From Candidatus Sumerlaea chitinivorans (GTDB lineage: Bacteria; Sumerlaeota; Sumerlaeia; Sumerlaeales; Sumerlaeaceae): DNA of 64,000 bases. The notes under the pieces were generated by a model, which was not told the DNA's origin, searched no databases, and saw only the letters and a program-made list of their open reading frames with translations. Both the position numbers and the translations under genes were made by a program. The DNA lies in contig CP030759.1 in NCBI GenBank assembly GCA_003290465.1, positions 186,001 through 250,000 of the forward strand, given 5' to 3'. Shown one piece after another: positions 47,476 to 54,142 of this stretch (position 1 is its first letter; the number at the start of each line of letters is the position of its first letter).

Positions 47476-48222
47476 ATGGGAACAAAGAATAAACTCATCC
47501 TTGCTCTGCCGGCGTACAACGAAGCTGCGAACTTACCGGCACTTATCGAATCCGCCCATCGGGTGTTCACGGATAACGAGCTTACGTATGAGATTGTCGT
47601 GGTGAACGATGGTTCGACCGACGCAACTGCGCAGGTGTTGGGTGAGCTTGCCGCACAGTATCCCATTCACGTTGTCGAGCATCCTGAGAATCGCGGCTTA
47701 GGAGCGGCAATCCGAACGCTCCTCCCGGCAGCACTCGATCGGACCTTAGATCCGGACGATGCAGTTGTCTGCATGGATGCCGACAACACGCATGATCCCG
47801 CCTACGTACCCCAGATGGTCGAAAAACTGTGGCGCGACGGCTACGATATCGTCATTGCCTCACGATTTTGTAAGGGGAGCGAAGAGGTAGGGGTTCCGTT
47901 TGTGCGTCGCCTCATGAGCCGCGGAGCACGACTGCTCTTTCGACTTTTCCTCGACCTGCCGGAAGTGCGAGATTACACCTGTGGCTACCGTGCCTACCGC
48001 GCCCAACTACTCAAACAAGCTCTTGCCAAGTACGGTGATCGCCTGATCACCCGCGAGGGATTTGCCTGCACGGACGAGCTATTGGTCCATCTCAGTACAC
48101 TGACGAAGCGCGTGGGTGAGATTCCGTTTGTTCTCCGCTACGATCGTAAACAAGGGAGAAGCAAGCTGCCACTTTTTCGCACAATTCTCGAAACTCTGCG
48201 CATGCTGATTCAAAAGGATTGA
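47476..48222 (+). CDS. GT2 glycosyltransferase, dolichyl/polyprenyl-phosphate mannose synthase-like
   Basis: 248 residues from MGTKNKLIL. GT-A fold: LALPAYNEAANLPALI, VVNDGSTDATAQVL and DADNTHDP (metal-binding DxD-type), then TCGYRAYRAQLL and FVLRYDRKQGRSKL of the DPM1 type. No membrane helices, like DPM1-type enzymes that need none. It would charge a polyprenyl phosphate with a hexose for periplasmic GT-C enzymes. It overlaps the convergent TMTC-like gene by 13 bp. Confidence 0.85.
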   Translation: MGTKNKLILALPAYNEAANLPALIESAHRVFTDNELTYEIVVVNDGSTDATAQVLGELAAQYPIHVVEHPENRGLGAAIRTLLPAALDRTLDPDDAVVCMDADNTHDPAYVPQMVEKLWRDGYDIVIASRFCKGSEEVGVPFVRRLMSRGARLLFRLFLDLPEVRDYTCGYRAYRAQLLKQALAKYGDRLITREGFACTDELLVHLSTLTKRVGEIPFVLRYDRKQGRSKLPLFRTILETLRMLIQKD

Positions 48223-49961
48223 GAGGGCAAAGCTTTTGTAGGGGAGCTTGTTGTGTCCTCAGGGGAGTGATTCGGCGGCGTCGTGGGTAGTTCGGAAGCT
48301 GGTGTTCTTTGCGTTTGCGACGGGGAAGAATCAAGATCCGCCAAGATTCGTTGAGCAAAAGGATGAGAGGGGGCCACTTGAAGTGCTTGGCGCAGGTCGG
48401 TGCGTGCCGCACTCGTGTCTCCAAGCTTGGCCTGTACCGCCCCACGTACCGCAAGGCCCCATGCCGACTTAGGATTCAGTTGGAGTGCTCGCTCCGCATT
48501 TTCCAAAGCCTGTGCGTAAGCTCCGAGCTGGTATAGAACGAACGCTAAGTTTGCGCGTAGGGAGGCATCCTCTGGTTGGATCCGAAGTGCCTGCTCAAAG
48601 TGGTTGCGCGCCTCTTCCCATTGTCCCTCGCGAGCTTCTATCGTACCAAGCATCTGGTGGGCCACCCAGGCGTCGGGGTTGCGACGGACGGTATCTCTTA
48701 GAATTGTCTTGGCCGAGCCAAACATTTCTGCGCGCTGCATCGTCAACCAAGTCCAGAGCACAACAATGCCCCCGACAAGGCCGGCAAGGAGCCCGCGCCC
48801 ATACCGGTTGCCCGCCGCTTGAAACAGACGAACGGCCGCAGAAGCCAAAAGTACGAGCGGACCGATGCTGGCCAAGTATTGGAAACGATCCGCCACATAG
48901 GCGTGCTGCATATAACTAAACGGAATAAGGCCGAGCGTGGGGAGAAGGGTGATTACGTAGAATGCCCACGCGAATGGAATCCCCCTACCGATTCGATGCT
49001 GCCAAGCAAATACCCCCACCATAACCAGAATGGCAAGAAGGGTAGGAATCCAACTGGTGATTCCAAGCCCGGCAAGGTCCCACTTGGCGTAAATGAGCGA
49101 CTGGGGATAAGGAACAAGTAATTTCCAGAGGTAGAACCAAAAGGCGTGTCCCGCCAGCGCCACTCGCTGCACGACTGGGAACTCGGTCGGTTGGCGACCA
49201 CTGCGCATAGCCACGATTAGGTCCAAGGTGGCGAGGAGCCCAGCGATCGCCAGAAGTCCAAGCAGGAGCCGGTGCCGACGTCTGACCTGTGGCATCCCCC
49301 CACGCCACCACTCATAGAGAGCAGCTGCGACAGGAAATGTAATTGCGACACTCTTACTCCATACGGCGAGCACGAAAAGCGCGATACAAGAGATCATGCC
49401 GAGTCGCTGCTGTGTTGAGGTGTGCGAAGAGGCAGTCGTGGAAGAAAGATAAGCGTGAGCTGCCAGTAGATAGAAAAGTCCCGATAAAACGTCTTTAAGT
49501 TCAATTATCCATGCCACACTCTCCACATGGATGGGATGGATGCCAAAGAATAAAGCCCCGAGCCACGCCGCCGGAATCTGCATCCGACGCAGCAACAACC
49601 AGAGCAAGAGTGTGTTGACGACGTGAAGAACAATGTTTGTGAGCCGAAAAGCGAAGGCGTCCATACCCCAGATGCGTGCTTGCAGCCAAAAGACAGTGTA
49701 GGTGACCGGCCAATAATGCTCTTCTAATTCGTTGCGAGGGGGATAATGCCAAAAATCTGCAAGTCCATCGGAACGGTGGAGGGCTGGGGTGCTATGCAGG
49801 CTCCAGTCATCCCACAACCAGCGATCTTCCGGAGTCGTGCGCACAGACAGCGACGGGAAGTACGCTGCCAACGTGACACAGAGCAGGAAAAGGCCTAACA
49901 ATACGAGACGGAGTCCCCTTGGGTGCACACTGGACGGGGGATTTAGGGAGTCCGATTCCAT
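48210..49961 (-). CDS. TMTC/PMT-like membrane glycosyltransferase with C-terminal TPRs (copy B)
   Basis: 583 residues from the ATG at 49961; a longer open frame upstream overlaps the neighbouring gene. About ten helices with the TMTC hallmarks: WDDWSLH..., EEHYWPVTYTVFWLQ, IHPIHVESVAWIIELKDVLSGLFYLLA and YVADRFQYLA. Residues about 425-550 are TPRs (DAWVAHQMLGTIEAREGQWEEARNHFEQALRIQPED...). Eukaryotic TMTC1-4 are ER O-mannosyltransferases with the same layout. I infer a periplasmic O-glycosyltransferase using a polyprenyl-phosphate sugar. Starts 7 bp after copy A. Confidence 0.8.
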   Translation of the reverse strand: MESDSLNPPSSVHPRGLRLVLLGLFLLCVTLAAYFPSLSVRTTPEDRWLWDDWSLHSTPALHRSDGLADFWHYPPRNELEEHYWPVTYTVFWLQARIWGMDAFAFRLTNIVLHVVNTLLLWLLLRRMQIPAAWLGALFFGIHPIHVESVAWIIELKDVLSGLFYLLAAHAYLSSTTASSHTSTQQRLGMISCIALFVLAVWSKSVAITFPVAAALYEWWRGGMPQVRRRHRLLLGLLAIAGLLATLDLIVAMRSGRQPTEFPVVQRVALAGHAFWFYLWKLLVPYPQSLIYAKWDLAGLGITSWIPTLLAILVMVGVFAWQHRIGRGIPFAWAFYVITLLPTLGLIPFSYMQHAYVADRFQYLASIGPLVLLASAAVRLFQAAGNRYGRGLLAGLVGGIVVLWTWLTMQRAEMFGSAKTILRDTVRRNPDAWVAHQMLGTIEAREGQWEEARNHFEQALRIQPEDASLRANLAFVLYQLGAYAQALENAERALQLNPKSAWGLAVRGAVQAKLGDTSAARTDLRQALQVAPSHPFAQRILADLDSSPSQTQRTPASELPTTPPNHSPEDTTSSPTKALPSQSF

Positions 49962-49968
49962 ATTCTTG

Positions 49969-51636
49969 TCACTCCGTGTACTTGTCGGCTCTGTAAAGCT
50001 CCATAATGAGACGTAGGGCAGATGTGGTTTCACCGAGCTGTTCAAGAAGAACCGCACGAGCGATCTTTGCTTGGCTTGCCGATGAGTCCAGCTCACAGGC
50101 ACGTGCAAAGGCTTCCTCAGCGGCCTTGAGCTCCCCGCCCGCGGCGAGTGCCAGCCCCAAATTGAAGAGGGCAGAGGGGTGGTTCGGTGTCTTCTCTAAT
50201 TGAAGACGGGCTTCCTGCAAAAGCGCGTCCTTACGAGGTTCCAAAGCTTTCAGCGATGTCCAGAAAGTGTTCGCGTACTCTTGCAAAACACGAGGATAAT
50301 CCCCACGTTTTGCCAAGGCGTCTGCAAGGTAGTAGCGGGCAACAGTCGCTTCTGGATTTTTCGCAAGGGTATCCCGGGCCAGACGTTCAATGTCAGCGAA
50401 GGTATTGGCGCGGACGAACGTTAGAATGCCAAGGACGCACATCACTGCCGTCGTTAGGAACACGCCAACTCGCTTCCCTTGCGGAACCCATCGAAGCGCG
50501 TTTGCTGTTAGCTCTGTTAGCGCACAAATCATAAAGACGCTTGCGTGATACACAAAACGGTCTGCGACAAACGACTGGCGCTGGTATGAGAAGGGAACGA
50601 CGCCAGTCACGGGCAGGAGCAACAGCACAAACGCTGTGCTCGCCGCAAAGAATCCAGCCGGCACGCTATTGGGGGCCATGCGGGGACGAATGATGCTTCG
50701 AACAACAATCACGGCCGTAGCGGTGACAAGCAAGAACAGAGAGAGAGTCGGGAGGAGACTGAGTAGTAGGCCCATGCGGAGAGGTTGCCACTTCGGATAA
50801 ATCGCGCACAGCGCATCAGGCCAAATCAACTTCAGGACATAAAACCCTACGGTTTGTCCGATAAGCGCTATGCGCTCCACTACGGAGAGATATTCCGTTG
50901 GTCGGCCGCTTCCCTGGACAATCCAGAGGTCGAGGACCACTAAGGCGACGGATAGGCTTAGCCAGAGTGCGAGGCTGGGAATTTCCCGCCGCAAGCGGTT
51001 GGGAAATCTCCACCACGTAAGAAGTCCTGCAATAAGCGGGAGGGGAGCGACTGCGCTCTTGGACCACATGGCCAAGACGTACAATCCGAGTACATCCCAA
51101 GGGAGAGCTCGAGTGGGTGGGTCCTGCTCAACTCTTCGGAGCCAGCGGCCAAGGGCGAGGGCTCCAAAAGTGAACGACAAGACATTCTTCAGTTCCACGA
51201 TCCAAGCAACAGATTCCACGTGGAGAGGATGAACGGCAAAGATTGCGGCTCCGATCCAAGCACAGGAGATTTGAAGTCGCCGCGCGAGCCGGTAAACAAG
51301 GACCGCGTTTGTTGCGTGAAGGACAACATTCAGCAAATGAAATACCCAAGGCGAACCGCCAGCGCCAAGCCGGTGAAGCAGCCAAAACACCGTATACGTC
51401 ACCGGCCAATAATGTTCTTCGAGGGGATCACTTCCGGGGCGAAACCAAATGCGCCCCAATCCAGCAAAGGAGGTTAGGAGCGGATTTTGAAGCGCAGCTT
51501 GATCGTCCCAGATGGTTCCACCCATTAAGGCTGGAACGTACACGAACATGGCGAGTCCCCAGAGGGCTAACGAGGGATTCGTGAGGAAACGTCTTACAAT
51601 CCCGCTTTGCCATAGGTTGGTGCGCTGAACATGCAT
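49969..51636 (-). CDS. TMTC/PMT-like membrane glycosyltransferase with C-terminal TPRs (copy A)
   Basis: 555 residues. Same layout as its downstream paralogue: TIWDDQAALQNP, EEHYWPVTYTVFWLLHRL, VHPLHVESVAWIVELKNVLSFTF, SFVADRFVYHA, then TPRs (NPEATVARYYLADALAKRGDYPRVLQEY, HPSALFNLGLALAAGGELKAAEEAFARACELD). The acidic pair near the N-terminus and the HPxHVESVAWI block are the conserved TMTC active-site region. Tandem duplication with copy B; both follow the downstream pilin gene on the same strand. Confidence 0.8.
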   Translation of the reverse strand: MHVQRTNLWQSGIVRRFLTNPSLALWGLAMFVYVPALMGGTIWDDQAALQNPLLTSFAGLGRIWFRPGSDPLEEHYWPVTYTVFWLLHRLGAGGSPWVFHLLNVVLHATNAVLVYRLARRLQISCAWIGAAIFAVHPLHVESVAWIVELKNVLSFTFGALALGRWLRRVEQDPPTRALPWDVLGLYVLAMWSKSAVAPLPLIAGLLTWWRFPNRLRREIPSLALWLSLSVALVVLDLWIVQGSGRPTEYLSVVERIALIGQTVGFYVLKLIWPDALCAIYPKWQPLRMGLLLSLLPTLSLFLLVTATAVIVVRSIIRPRMAPNSVPAGFFAASTAFVLLLLPVTGVVPFSYQRQSFVADRFVYHASVFMICALTELTANALRWVPQGKRVGVFLTTAVMCVLGILTFVRANTFADIERLARDTLAKNPEATVARYYLADALAKRGDYPRVLQEYANTFWTSLKALEPRKDALLQEARLQLEKTPNHPSALFNLGLALAAGGELKAAEEAFARACELDSSASQAKIARAVLLEQLGETTSALRLIMELYRADKYTE

Positions 51637-51845: not shown

Positions 51846-52235
51846 TCATTTCACGACATGTGGCTCGTACGGCATGTTGAGAGTACCAATTGAGCAGGTG
51901 GGGTCTGTGCCAATGGGATTGGCTGAGTAAACCCCATTTGCAGGACATTGGGGAACAACTTTGAGGTATCCTTCTCCCACCTTCGTAGTACCCGGCGGGG
52001 AAATCAGATCGTCGGGATATACAATTGTGCTGCCATTGGAAATGTGGAACTCCATGGCGTACTGCTCTTTCGCCTGAGAGATCTTGGCAAGATTCTCCTG
52101 ACATGCCACTCCCCGTGCATTTTCGCGCTGACGCAACCACGTTGGAGCAGCGATCGCGACAACAATGGCAATGATCGCCAACACAATGACAATCTCCAAG
52201 AGTGTGAAGGCGCGATATCGAAGGATTTGTTTCAT
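51846..52235 (-). CDS. type IV pilin-like protein (downstream copy)
   Basis: 129 residues from MKQILRYRAFTLLEIV. The class III signal has Ala rather than Gly at position -1 of the FTLLE cleavage site, followed by a hydrophobic N-terminal helix and Glu5. The C-terminal half (ACQENLAKISQAKEQYAMEF, QCPANGVYSANPIGTDPTCSIG) is a close paralogue of the upstream pilin, with three conserved Cys. Assembled into pili or pseudopili after prepilin peptidase cleavage. It is the last pilin before the TMTC-like genes. Confidence 0.88.
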   Translation of the reverse strand: MKQILRYRAFTLLEIVIVLAIIAIVVAIAAPTWLRQRENARGVACQENLAKISQAKEQYAMEFHISNGSTIVYPDDLISPPGTTKVGEGYLKVVPQCPANGVYSANPIGTDPTCSIGTLNMPYEPHVVK

Positions 52236-52304: not shown

Positions 52305-52349
52305 GTGCAAAAGAAAGGCGGCGGGAGAGCTTTCCCGCTTCCCGCCGCC
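52305..52349 (-). terminator. intrinsic terminator after the upstream pilin
   Basis: Reading leftward, a perfect 10-bp GC-rich stem (52349-52340 with 52326-52317, GGCGGCGGGA/TCCCGCCGCC) has a 13-nt loop and is followed by TTTCTTTTG. A textbook Rho-independent terminator placed between the two pilin genes. Confidence 0.8.
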
Positions 52350-52407: not shown

Positions 52408-52788
52408 TTAGGGCATGATGTGCGGCGTGAACGGTGCGTTGCTCGAGCCGATCGAGCAGGTCGGGTTGGTTCCGATTGGGTTGACGGTGTACGTTCCGCC
52501 CGACGGGCACTGCGGTTCGGCCTTCAGATACCCTTCTTTGTTGCCAGCGGTTGCGCCCGGCGGATCGATCAGCTCGGTCATCGTCACGGTGCCACCGTTC
52601 GACAGCTTGAACTCGAGAGCATATTGCTCCTTCGCGCCGTCGATCTTCGACAGGTTCTCTTGGCATGCCTGGCCACGCGAATTTTCACGTGCACGCAGGA
52701 AGGCCGGTACTGCGATCGCGATGATGATACCGATGATCGCCACCACGATCATAATCTCAACGAGGGTGAAACCCTTGCGAGCCTTCAT
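52408..52788 (-). CDS. type IV major pilin-like protein (upstream copy)
   Basis: 126 residues. The ATG at 52788 has AAAGGAG 8 bp upstream, which decides it over an ATG 18 bp earlier. Canonical prepilin signal MKARKG|FTLVE, hydrophobic N-terminal helix, then ACQENLSKIDGAKEQYALEF and QCPSGGTYTVNPIGTNPTCSIG, three Cys in all. Short pilins of this type are common in Planctomycetes-Verrucomicrobia-Omnitrophica-like bacteria. A sigma-54-type promoter lies 46 bp upstream and a strong terminator just downstream, so it is probably highly and separately expressed. Confidence 0.93.
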   Translation of the reverse strand: MKARKGFTLVEIMIVVAIIGIIIAIAVPAFLRARENSRGQACQENLSKIDGAKEQYALEFKLSNGGTVTMTELIDPPGATAGNKEGYLKAEPQCPSGGTYTVNPIGTNPTCSIGSSNAPFTPHIMP

Positions 52789-52833
52789 AGTTTTTGCTCC
52801 TTTCATGAGCTAAAATTGGATGCACACCGCTAA

Positions 52834-52849
52834 AGCCAACTGCGTGCCA
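52834..52849 (-). promoter_or_regulatory. sigma-54 (-24/-12) promoter of the upstream pilin
   Basis: Leftward, TGGCACGCAGTTGGCT matches TGGCACG-N4-TTGCW with a single mismatch. The invariant GG (-24) and GC (-12) have correct 12-bp register. The start would fall near 52823, leaving a leader of about 35 nt that includes AAAGGAG. Pilin genes are often sigma-54/PilR dependent. Confidence 0.7.
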
Positions 52850-53137
52850 CACGTGGCCCATATAGATTCAACAAAATAGAACGCTGAGAATAAAGGACTT
52901 AAAATAAATTACGTAACCAAAAGATATCGGTGGGAAGCATTAAAATGTGTAAGCCGTTACACATCATGTGAACGCAGGTTCACATATTCCCATGCGGGCT
53001 CAACGTCCGTTGCAACCTAACAGGAAATGCTTGCGCGCACGACATCGTGGCAACGCTGCACCTCGTGAAGTGGCAGTGAAAAATGGGCGAAACTCCTTCT
53101 TGACGCGTTCGCATTCCCACATCACCCATTTGAAACT
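52850..53137. other. control region between the pilin and kdsD-like genes
   Basis: AT-rich divergent region of about 290 bp upstream of the -24/-12 promoter. It contains the tandem palindromes listed separately at 52945-52985, and must also hold the promoter for the rightward sugar-phosphate isomerase gene. No coding sequence is evident. Confidence 0.5.
52945..52985. promoter_or_regulatory. two tandem 20-bp palindromes, candidate enhancer sites
   Basis: ATGTGTAA-GCCG-TTACACAT (52945-52964) and ATGTGAAC-GCAG-GTTCACAT (52966-52985). Each has perfect 8-bp arms and a 4-bp spacer; together they fit ATGTGnAn-N4-nTnCACAT. Centres are 21 bp apart, two helical turns, so two dimers would bind the same DNA face. 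They sit about 130 and 150 bp upstream of the inferred sigma-54 start, a typical enhancer position. Confidence 0.7.
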
Positions 53138-54142
53138 ATGAATGACCAACTAAGTGAAGCCACGTTAAAGCGTGCTCAGCAAGTCCTTAGGGATGAAGCA
53201 GACGCGCTACTCCGACTCGCTGATCGAATTGGTGAGCCATTCCACGCCGCTGTTGAAGCTATTCTGGCATGCAAAGGACGGGTTGTACTCACCGGGATGG
53301 GGAAGCATGGCATTGTCGCCAGAAAAATCGCTGCGACCCTTGCCAGCACGGGGACCCCTGCCTTCTACATGCACCCTGCCGAGGGGGCACACGGCGATCT
53401 CGGCATGATTAGCTCGGACGACCTTGTCATTGCGGTCAGTAATAGTGGAAACACGGACGAGGTCCTTGGCTGCATTCCCTATTTTAAACGCAATCACAAT
53501 CTGCTCATTGCGATGACAGGCCGTCTGGACAGTGAGCTTGCGCGGCATGCTGATATTGTGCTCGATATAGGCGTCGAGCGGGAGGTGTGTCCGCTGAATC
53601 TTGCACCGACCACGAGTACAACCGTTGCCCTTGCGATGGGCGATGCGTTGGCGGTGGTCCTTCTCGAGCGTCGGGGCTTCAATGCCGAGGACTTTGCGCT
53701 CCGGCACCCGAGTGGAACATTGGGAAAGCGGCTCTTGTTAAAGGTGGCGGATCTGATCAAGCCCGACCGGAACCCGATGATATCTCAGGATGCACGATTT
53801 GAGGAGGCGATCGAGGAAATAACCTCGAAACAATGTGGGGCTGTGAGCGTTGTTGATGCAGAGGGCCGCTTGGTGGGCATCATCACCGACGGAGATCTGC
53901 GCCGTATTTTCCAGCGGGAAGCGCGGCAAGGGACGCGGACAGTTGCCGAGGTCCTCAATCGGCCGGTTTCCGCACTCATGACGCGCAACCCGATGTTTGT
54001 GAGCAAGGAAACCCTCGCCGCCAAAGCCCTGAACATGATGGAAGATGGGCCACGGAAAATCTTTGTGCTTCCAGTCGTGGACGACGCCAAGCGCCCCATC
54101 GGAATGCTCCATCTCCACGACCTTGTGAGCGCAGGGGTGTAA
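53138..54142 (+). CDS. kdsD: arabinose-5-phosphate isomerase (KpsF/GutQ/KdsD family)
   Basis: 334 residues. SIS domain (GRVVLTGMGKHGIVARKIAATLASTGTPAFYMHPAEGAHGDLGMI, AVSNSGNTDEV) followed by two CBS domains (about 205-330, with GAVSVVDAEGRLVGIITDGDLRR and IGMLHLHDLVSAGV). It interconverts ribulose-5-P and arabinose-5-P, the first step to Kdo of lipopolysaccharide. In many bacteria it neighbours kdsC, lptC, lptA, lptB and rpoN; here only lptB is near. Confidence 0.93.
   Translation: MNDQLSEATLKRAQQVLRDEADALLRLADRIGEPFHAAVEAILACKGRVVLTGMGKHGIVARKIAATLASTGTPAFYMHPAEGAHGDLGMISSDDLVIAVSNSGNTDEVLGCIPYFKRNHNLLIAMTGRLDSELARHADIVLDIGVEREVCPLNLAPTTSTTVALAMGDALAVVLLERRGFNAEDFALRHPSGTLGKRLLLKVADLIKPDRNPMISQDARFEEAIEEITSKQCGAVSVVDAEGRLVGIITDGDLRRIFQREARQGTRTVAEVLNRPVSALMTRNPMFVSKETLAAKALNMMEDGPRKIFVLPVVDDAKRPIGMLHLHDLVSAGV

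Follow-up and report, generated by a model that had tools for sequence, protein, structure and literature searches.

The region between positions 52834 and 52985 of the analysed stretch, a 64-kb (64,000-nucleotide) window of the Candidatus Sumerlaea chitinivorans genome hereafter called the window, is probably the control region of a pilin gene, in which a sigma-54 promoter is preceded by paired enhancer sites (Table 1). The same switch, together with its probable activator, an NtrC-class response regulator, appears from sequence comparison to be conserved across the whole class of uncultured Sumerlaeota bacteria. Candidatus Sumerlaea chitinivorans provided the first complete genome of the phylum, and a type IV pilus system was reported in all genomes of the same study (PMC8092238).

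Table 1. Features of the putative pilin switch and its surroundings. Plain numbers are window positions; positions with the prefix C1 refer to the genome.
Feature	Position	Strand or orientation	Basis and remarks
Second prepilin, tandem paralogue	51846-52235	minus	PF07963 2.9e-6; 62% identical to pilin 1
Terminator-like hairpin with T-rich tail, between the two tandem pilins	52321-52338	minus	three such sites in the region vs 1.9 expected
Prepilin (pilin 1), 126 aa, N-methylation motif GFTLVEIM	52408-52788	minus	PF07963 6.1e-9
Ribosome-binding site AGGAG	52801-52797	minus	sequence
Predicted transcription start	52823	minus	predicted from the promoter element, ~12 nt past GC
Sigma-54 -24/-12 element TGGCACG-CAGT-TGGCT = TGGCACGCAGTTGGCT	52849-52834	minus	sequence; weighted consensus score 15/16
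Linker, 95 bp, 65% A+T, proximal site to -24 element	52850-52944	minus	sequence
Proximal candidate activator site ATGTGTAA-GCCG-TTACACAT, also written ATGTGTAAC-GG-CTTACACAT	52945-52964	minus	perfect 8-4-8 palindrome
Distal candidate activator site ATGTGAAC-GCAG-GTTCACAT	52966-52985	minus	perfect 8-4-8 palindrome
kpsF, arabinose-5-phosphate isomerase type, SIS + CBS domains	53138-54142	divergent from pilin	domain matches
Candidate regulator	C1:375971-377401		domain matches
Histidine kinase, HAMP-PAS-HisKA-HATPase	C1:377418-379022	directly upstream of the regulator gene	domain matches

The -24/-12 element displays its GG and GC in register and departs at one position from the GG-N10-GC core TGGCACG-N4-TTGCW, exactly as a first-pass annotation of this DNA had described it, and when both strands are scored no other position in the window reaches 15/16. 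The element ends 45 bp ahead of the pilin ATG at 52788, which has a good ribosome-binding site and is taken as the pilin start rather than the upstream ATG at 52806. With translation starting at 52788, the leader from a transcription start near 52823 is therefore approximately 35 nt long, in agreement with the first-pass annotation. A looser whole-genome count returned 149 near-consensus elements against 122 in a reversed control, and since such elements are not rare genome-wide the -24/-12 element by itself proves little. Almost all of the class members examined have a counterpart ahead of their pilin.

The two candidate activator sites, whose minus-strand readings are ATGTGTAACGGCTTACACAT (proximal, 52964-52945) and ATGTGAACCTGCGTTCACAT (distal, 52985-52966), start 21 bp apart and are separated by a single base. 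The centre of the proximal site is located ~131 bp before the predicted start and the second site 21 bp farther. The perfect 8-bp arms, 4-bp spacer and 21-bp offset noted in the first-pass annotation are thus exact at both sites, and its judgement that such a side-by-side pair is unlikely by chance is borne out by dinucleotide-shuffled windows, which contain on average 1.2 perfect 8-4-8 palindromes and an adjacent pair in 0 of 60 shuffles; the window itself holds three, two of which form the pair. A search for the exact palindrome pattern found it nowhere else in the 3.29-Mb genome (one contig, 3,289,105 bases).

Conservation of the sites was examined through a de novo palindromic motif search from random seeds in 23 class pilin upstream regions, the window's own included, each cut at a -24/-12 element that had itself been selected by score. 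The motif aTGkGTAAc-nn-gTTACmCAt was recovered in 22 of the 23 regions, with a log-likelihood of 184.6 against 47.5 or less in 12 dinucleotide shuffles. The linkers between motif and -24/-12 element measure 92-169 bp in the class and, in the relatives, are on average richer in A+T than the DNA upstream. The consensus ATGTGnAn-N4-nTnCACAT initially given to the palindromes is true of the window pair but constitutes a local form of this class motif. Similarly, the 21-bp spacing of two perfect sites holds in the window, whereas in the relatives the second site is found 21-24 bp beyond the first and is usually much weaker, its left half standing 22-24 bp farther up in most of them. Because the distal site is weak in most relatives, cooperativity between two full sites may be confined to few genomes.

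A matrix built exclusively from other families ranks the proximal site first in the 64 kb, with 26.7 bits (shuffle maximum 22.5 in 200 shuffles), and the distal site second, with 16.9 bits, a value equal to the shuffled second-best maximum of 16.9; leave-one-out matrices recover the sites in the relatives. A sequence-only profile built from 21 paired sites was also searched through 41 whole genomes. The pilin promoter tops its own genome (E 9.9e-5), its sequence being itself in the profile, and six held-out matches (G022, G012, G029, G008, G005:C90 and G021:C176) reach E values of 7e-8 to 0.0015. All six stand upstream of pilins or pilin-like genes, those of G005 and G021 being second copies, and each is followed 91-171 bp downstream by a GG-N10-GC-like element that beats shuffles (P<0.05) in four of the six and is no better than chance in G005:C90 and G021:C176. 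Palindromes and promoter element are kept together before pilins class-wide, and the layout, with tandem dyads on one helix face inside the range of about 80-200 bp upstream that is typical of bEBP sites and conserved with the promoter, suggests that the first-pass annotation was correct in reading it as that of an NtrC-class activator.

It is improbable that these pilin-promoter sites are bound by another factor, such as a repressor or a CRP/FNR-like protein, with the sigma-54 activator acting elsewhere. The half-site TGTGA/TGTGT does resemble a CRP half-site, and binding of the regulator is a prediction, but the spacing is wrong for CRP, with TGTGA-N8-TCACA here in place of TGTGA-N6-TCACA, and the class core is GTAA-N4-TTAC, so that the earlier rejection of a CRP site stands. 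Tandem sites 100-200 bp upstream also occupy the usual position of bEBP sites, and presence of the motif tracks one bEBP family, encoded beside the sites in six relatives.

The machinery required for an NtrC-class activator of the pilin is encoded in the genome, which contains rpoN (PF04552 1.4e-63) and nine full bEBPs with strong PF00158 matches, genes whose absence would have spoken against a sigma-54 promoter. In six relatives (L024, L026, L031, L036, L038 and L044) the pilin is directly preceded by a co-directed gene for an NtrC-class response regulator ending in the Fis-type helix GISRKSLxNKM. The ortholog in the organism itself, C1:375971-377401 (L145:3972-5402), displays a receiver domain (PF00072), a sigma-54 AAA+ domain with GAFTGA (PF00158) and a Fis-type HTH (PF02954); it matches the six at 53-58% over the full length, carries the same helix and is probably the activator acting at the window palindromes. 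Its gene lies 137 kb from the pilin. The adjoining kinase has two membrane helices predicted by a simple hydropathy scan, and NCBIfam offers no named equivalog above cut-off for regulator, kinase or pilin. In three of the loci where the bEBP gene adjoins the pilin (L031, L036 and L044) the distal site overlaps the bEBP stop codon, GATGAGTAA.

The absence of linkage between this regulator and the pilin, together with the eight further bEBPs of the genome, leaves room for another of the nine as the cognate activator, a reading that we consider distinctly unlikely. Among the nine, C1:375971-377401 is the closest to all six pilin-adjacent regulators, both over the full length and in the DNA-binding domain, and joins them in one clade with 100/100 support in a tree of 44 bEBPs whose deep branches are weak, while none of the other eight has the same recognition helix. 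The DNA-binding domain of C1:375971-377401 reaches E<1e-9 in 33 genomes, every one a member of the class, and paralogs score far behind it. With the cut set at 14 bits and taking the best site within a ~3-kb locus, the motif is present in 21 of the 25 genomes with the domain and in none of the five without it (P 0.0009; the three cuts tried gave P 0.009, 0.0009 and 0.006). This test counts related genomes as independent and some assemblies are incomplete, so the co-occurrence is used as supporting evidence only. In G006 and G035, whose assemblies are 66% and 75% complete, no regulator ortholog was detected and the sites are weak (~13.5 bits).

The palindromes share their intergenic region with the divergent kpsF, whose start is ~150 bp away, and could in principle be operators of that gene, bound by another dimeric factor and unrelated to the pilin. 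Synteny strongly contradicts this, and we regard it as very unlikely: the relatives have another neighbour at this place, often a co-directed bEBP gene, yet the motif keeps its distance from the pilin -24/-12 element. Since the motif is kept whether the neighbour is divergent kpsF, a bEBP gene in the pilin's direction or something else, it tracks the pilin and not the neighbouring gene, and every profile match with E<0.01 in the 41 genomes stands before a pilin. Chance palindromes or RNA hairpins devoid of a regulatory role deserve practically no credence, for although single perfect 8-4-8 palindromes arise about once per shuffled window, the sequence motif is conserved at a set place class-wide, and the palindromes, being upstream of the promoter element, fall outside the predicted pilin transcript and have no T run after them.

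The predicted regulon of the pilin activator looks restricted to the pilin. Under strict filters, which weak sites may escape, the genome contains no further site within one mismatch of the motif. Ten two-mismatch sites besides the pilin's were found, a number similar to the reversed control, and none of the ten has a -24/-12 element within 260 bp; no second target was found in the genome. As all E<0.01 matches in the 41 genomes are also at pilins, the circuit looks dedicated to pilin, whereas PilR regulons are broader (PMC6058289).

Homologs of the window pilin extend across the class, from 93% down to ~50% identity, and were found in 59 of the 61 genomes searched. The tandem arrangement of two pilins is seen in relatives too. 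In the family of L038 and L039 (G016 and G022) the switch precedes the first gene of a tandem pilin pair, beside the bEBP gene, and the second gene of the pair is the one closest to the window pilin. The hairpin between the two pilins might permit an excess of pilin 1 over pilin 2, although the terminator call is weak because three terminator-like sites are present where 1.9 are expected. An Rfam scan of the window returned tRNAs only. After the pilin pair, on the minus strand, 48210-51636 encodes two large proteins with multiple membrane segments and TPR repeats at the C-terminus. One of them has a weak mannosyltransferase match (PF13231), and the two are possibly pilin glycosylation genes.

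Taken as a circuit, these elements very probably compose a sigma-54 pilin switch running from the kinase C1:377418-379022 through the regulator C1:375971-377401 and the two palindromes to the pilin. The sequences show directly the DNA elements, their conservation together with their spacing, the linkage and distribution of the regulator family and the presence of rpoN; from these we infer binding of the regulator to the sites, its phosphorylation by the neighbouring kinase, looping of the DNA and the activating nature of the control. Sigma-54 RNA polymerase would sit on the -24/-12 element, unable to open the promoter alone. In response to a signal the membrane kinase would phosphorylate the regulator, whose dimers would bind next to each other at the two palindromes, on the same helix face, and assemble an active AAA+ ring. 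This ring would contact the polymerase through looping of the ~95-bp A+T-rich linker, and ATP hydrolysis would then open the promoter, leading to pilin synthesis. The window linker contains no exact IHF site, and because among the relatives only two have one in the linker, no role of IHF is claimed.

The predicted switch resembles the PilS-PilR/pilA systems of Pseudomonas, Geobacter and Myxococcus in its two-component NtrC-class regulator, sigma-54 promoter, upstream sites and pilin target. Geobacter pilA follows directly after pilR (PMC2725144), a gene order that matches the six Sumerlaeota relatives and differs from Candidatus Sumerlaea chitinivorans, where the regulator is unlinked to the pilin. 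The activator "such as PilR" suggested at the outset agrees in role, but PilR ancestry is not supported by comparison with two deltaproteobacterial, pilA-adjacent PilRs, the only PilRs in the tree: these pair elsewhere with 100/99 support (the deep branches being weak), and their recognition helix is RSMRYRL against RKSLHNKM here. The kinase, with its two predicted helices and HAMP/PAS, would also differ from Pseudomonas aeruginosa PilS, which has six membrane helices (PMC6058289). The PilR sites of P. aeruginosa contain TGT-N11-AGA and GTCT elements (PMC6058289) and differ from the Sumerlaeota motif, which the Geobacter PilR-site motif may yet resemble.

Similar half-sites are found in other bEBP systems. 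GcsR of Pseudomonas and TyrR of Escherichia recognize sites with the half-site TGTAA(C), namely TGTAACG-N4-CGTTCCG, in tandem, and TGTAAA-N6-TTTACA, respectively (PMC4894688); in contrast, the arms here are 4 bp closer (TGTAA-N4-TTACA), the outer TGkG is part of the motif and the target is another. The sigma-54 activator CbrB of Pseudomonas putida, with half-sites TGTTAC/GTAACA in contiguous sites centred 20-25 bp apart (PMC6296734), is comparable in half-sites and site spacing, but it uses loose 6-bp subsites of varied orientation, whereas an 18-20 bp palindrome and a pilin target are found here. NmpR of Myxococcus xanthus is NtrC-like, has palindromic sites in pairs ahead of a sigma-54 promoter and is linked to type IV pili via pilR (PMC11841059); its consensus is GCGCA-N5-TGCGC, however, and its target is pilR, so that any effect on the pilin gene is indirect. 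In Desulfovibrio vulgaris the sigma-54 response regulator DVU2114 likewise has a conserved motif ahead of pilin genes (PMC3333781, PMC4641369), but the pili it controls are of the Tad type. A literature search for sigma-54 systems with a GTAAC/GTTAC motif returned GcsR and CbrB and no pilin case, and in the literature covered, mostly outside subscription journals, no account of the motif or circuit in Sumerlaeota was found.

The circuit thus looks like a PilSR-like switch, of a known type in a new lineage, with an apparently new operator code and its own regulator branch. A further proposal, which we hold to be evenly balanced between right and wrong, is that a regulator family other than PilR was recruited in the ancestor of the Sumerlaeota class for essentially the pilin only, using TGkGTAAC-N2-GTTACmCA as its DNA code and another type of sensor. 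If true, the system would correspond to PilSR without being orthologous to it, and would have persisted as long as the class itself, even in genomes where the regulator and pilin genes have become separated. The circuit provides a regulator, an operator and a target, all testable, for a phylum with no reported pure culture (PMC8092238, 2021), and pairs the DNA-reading helix of a bEBP with its probable DNA code. It also suggests that sigma-54 control of pilin may have arisen via different bEBP branches.
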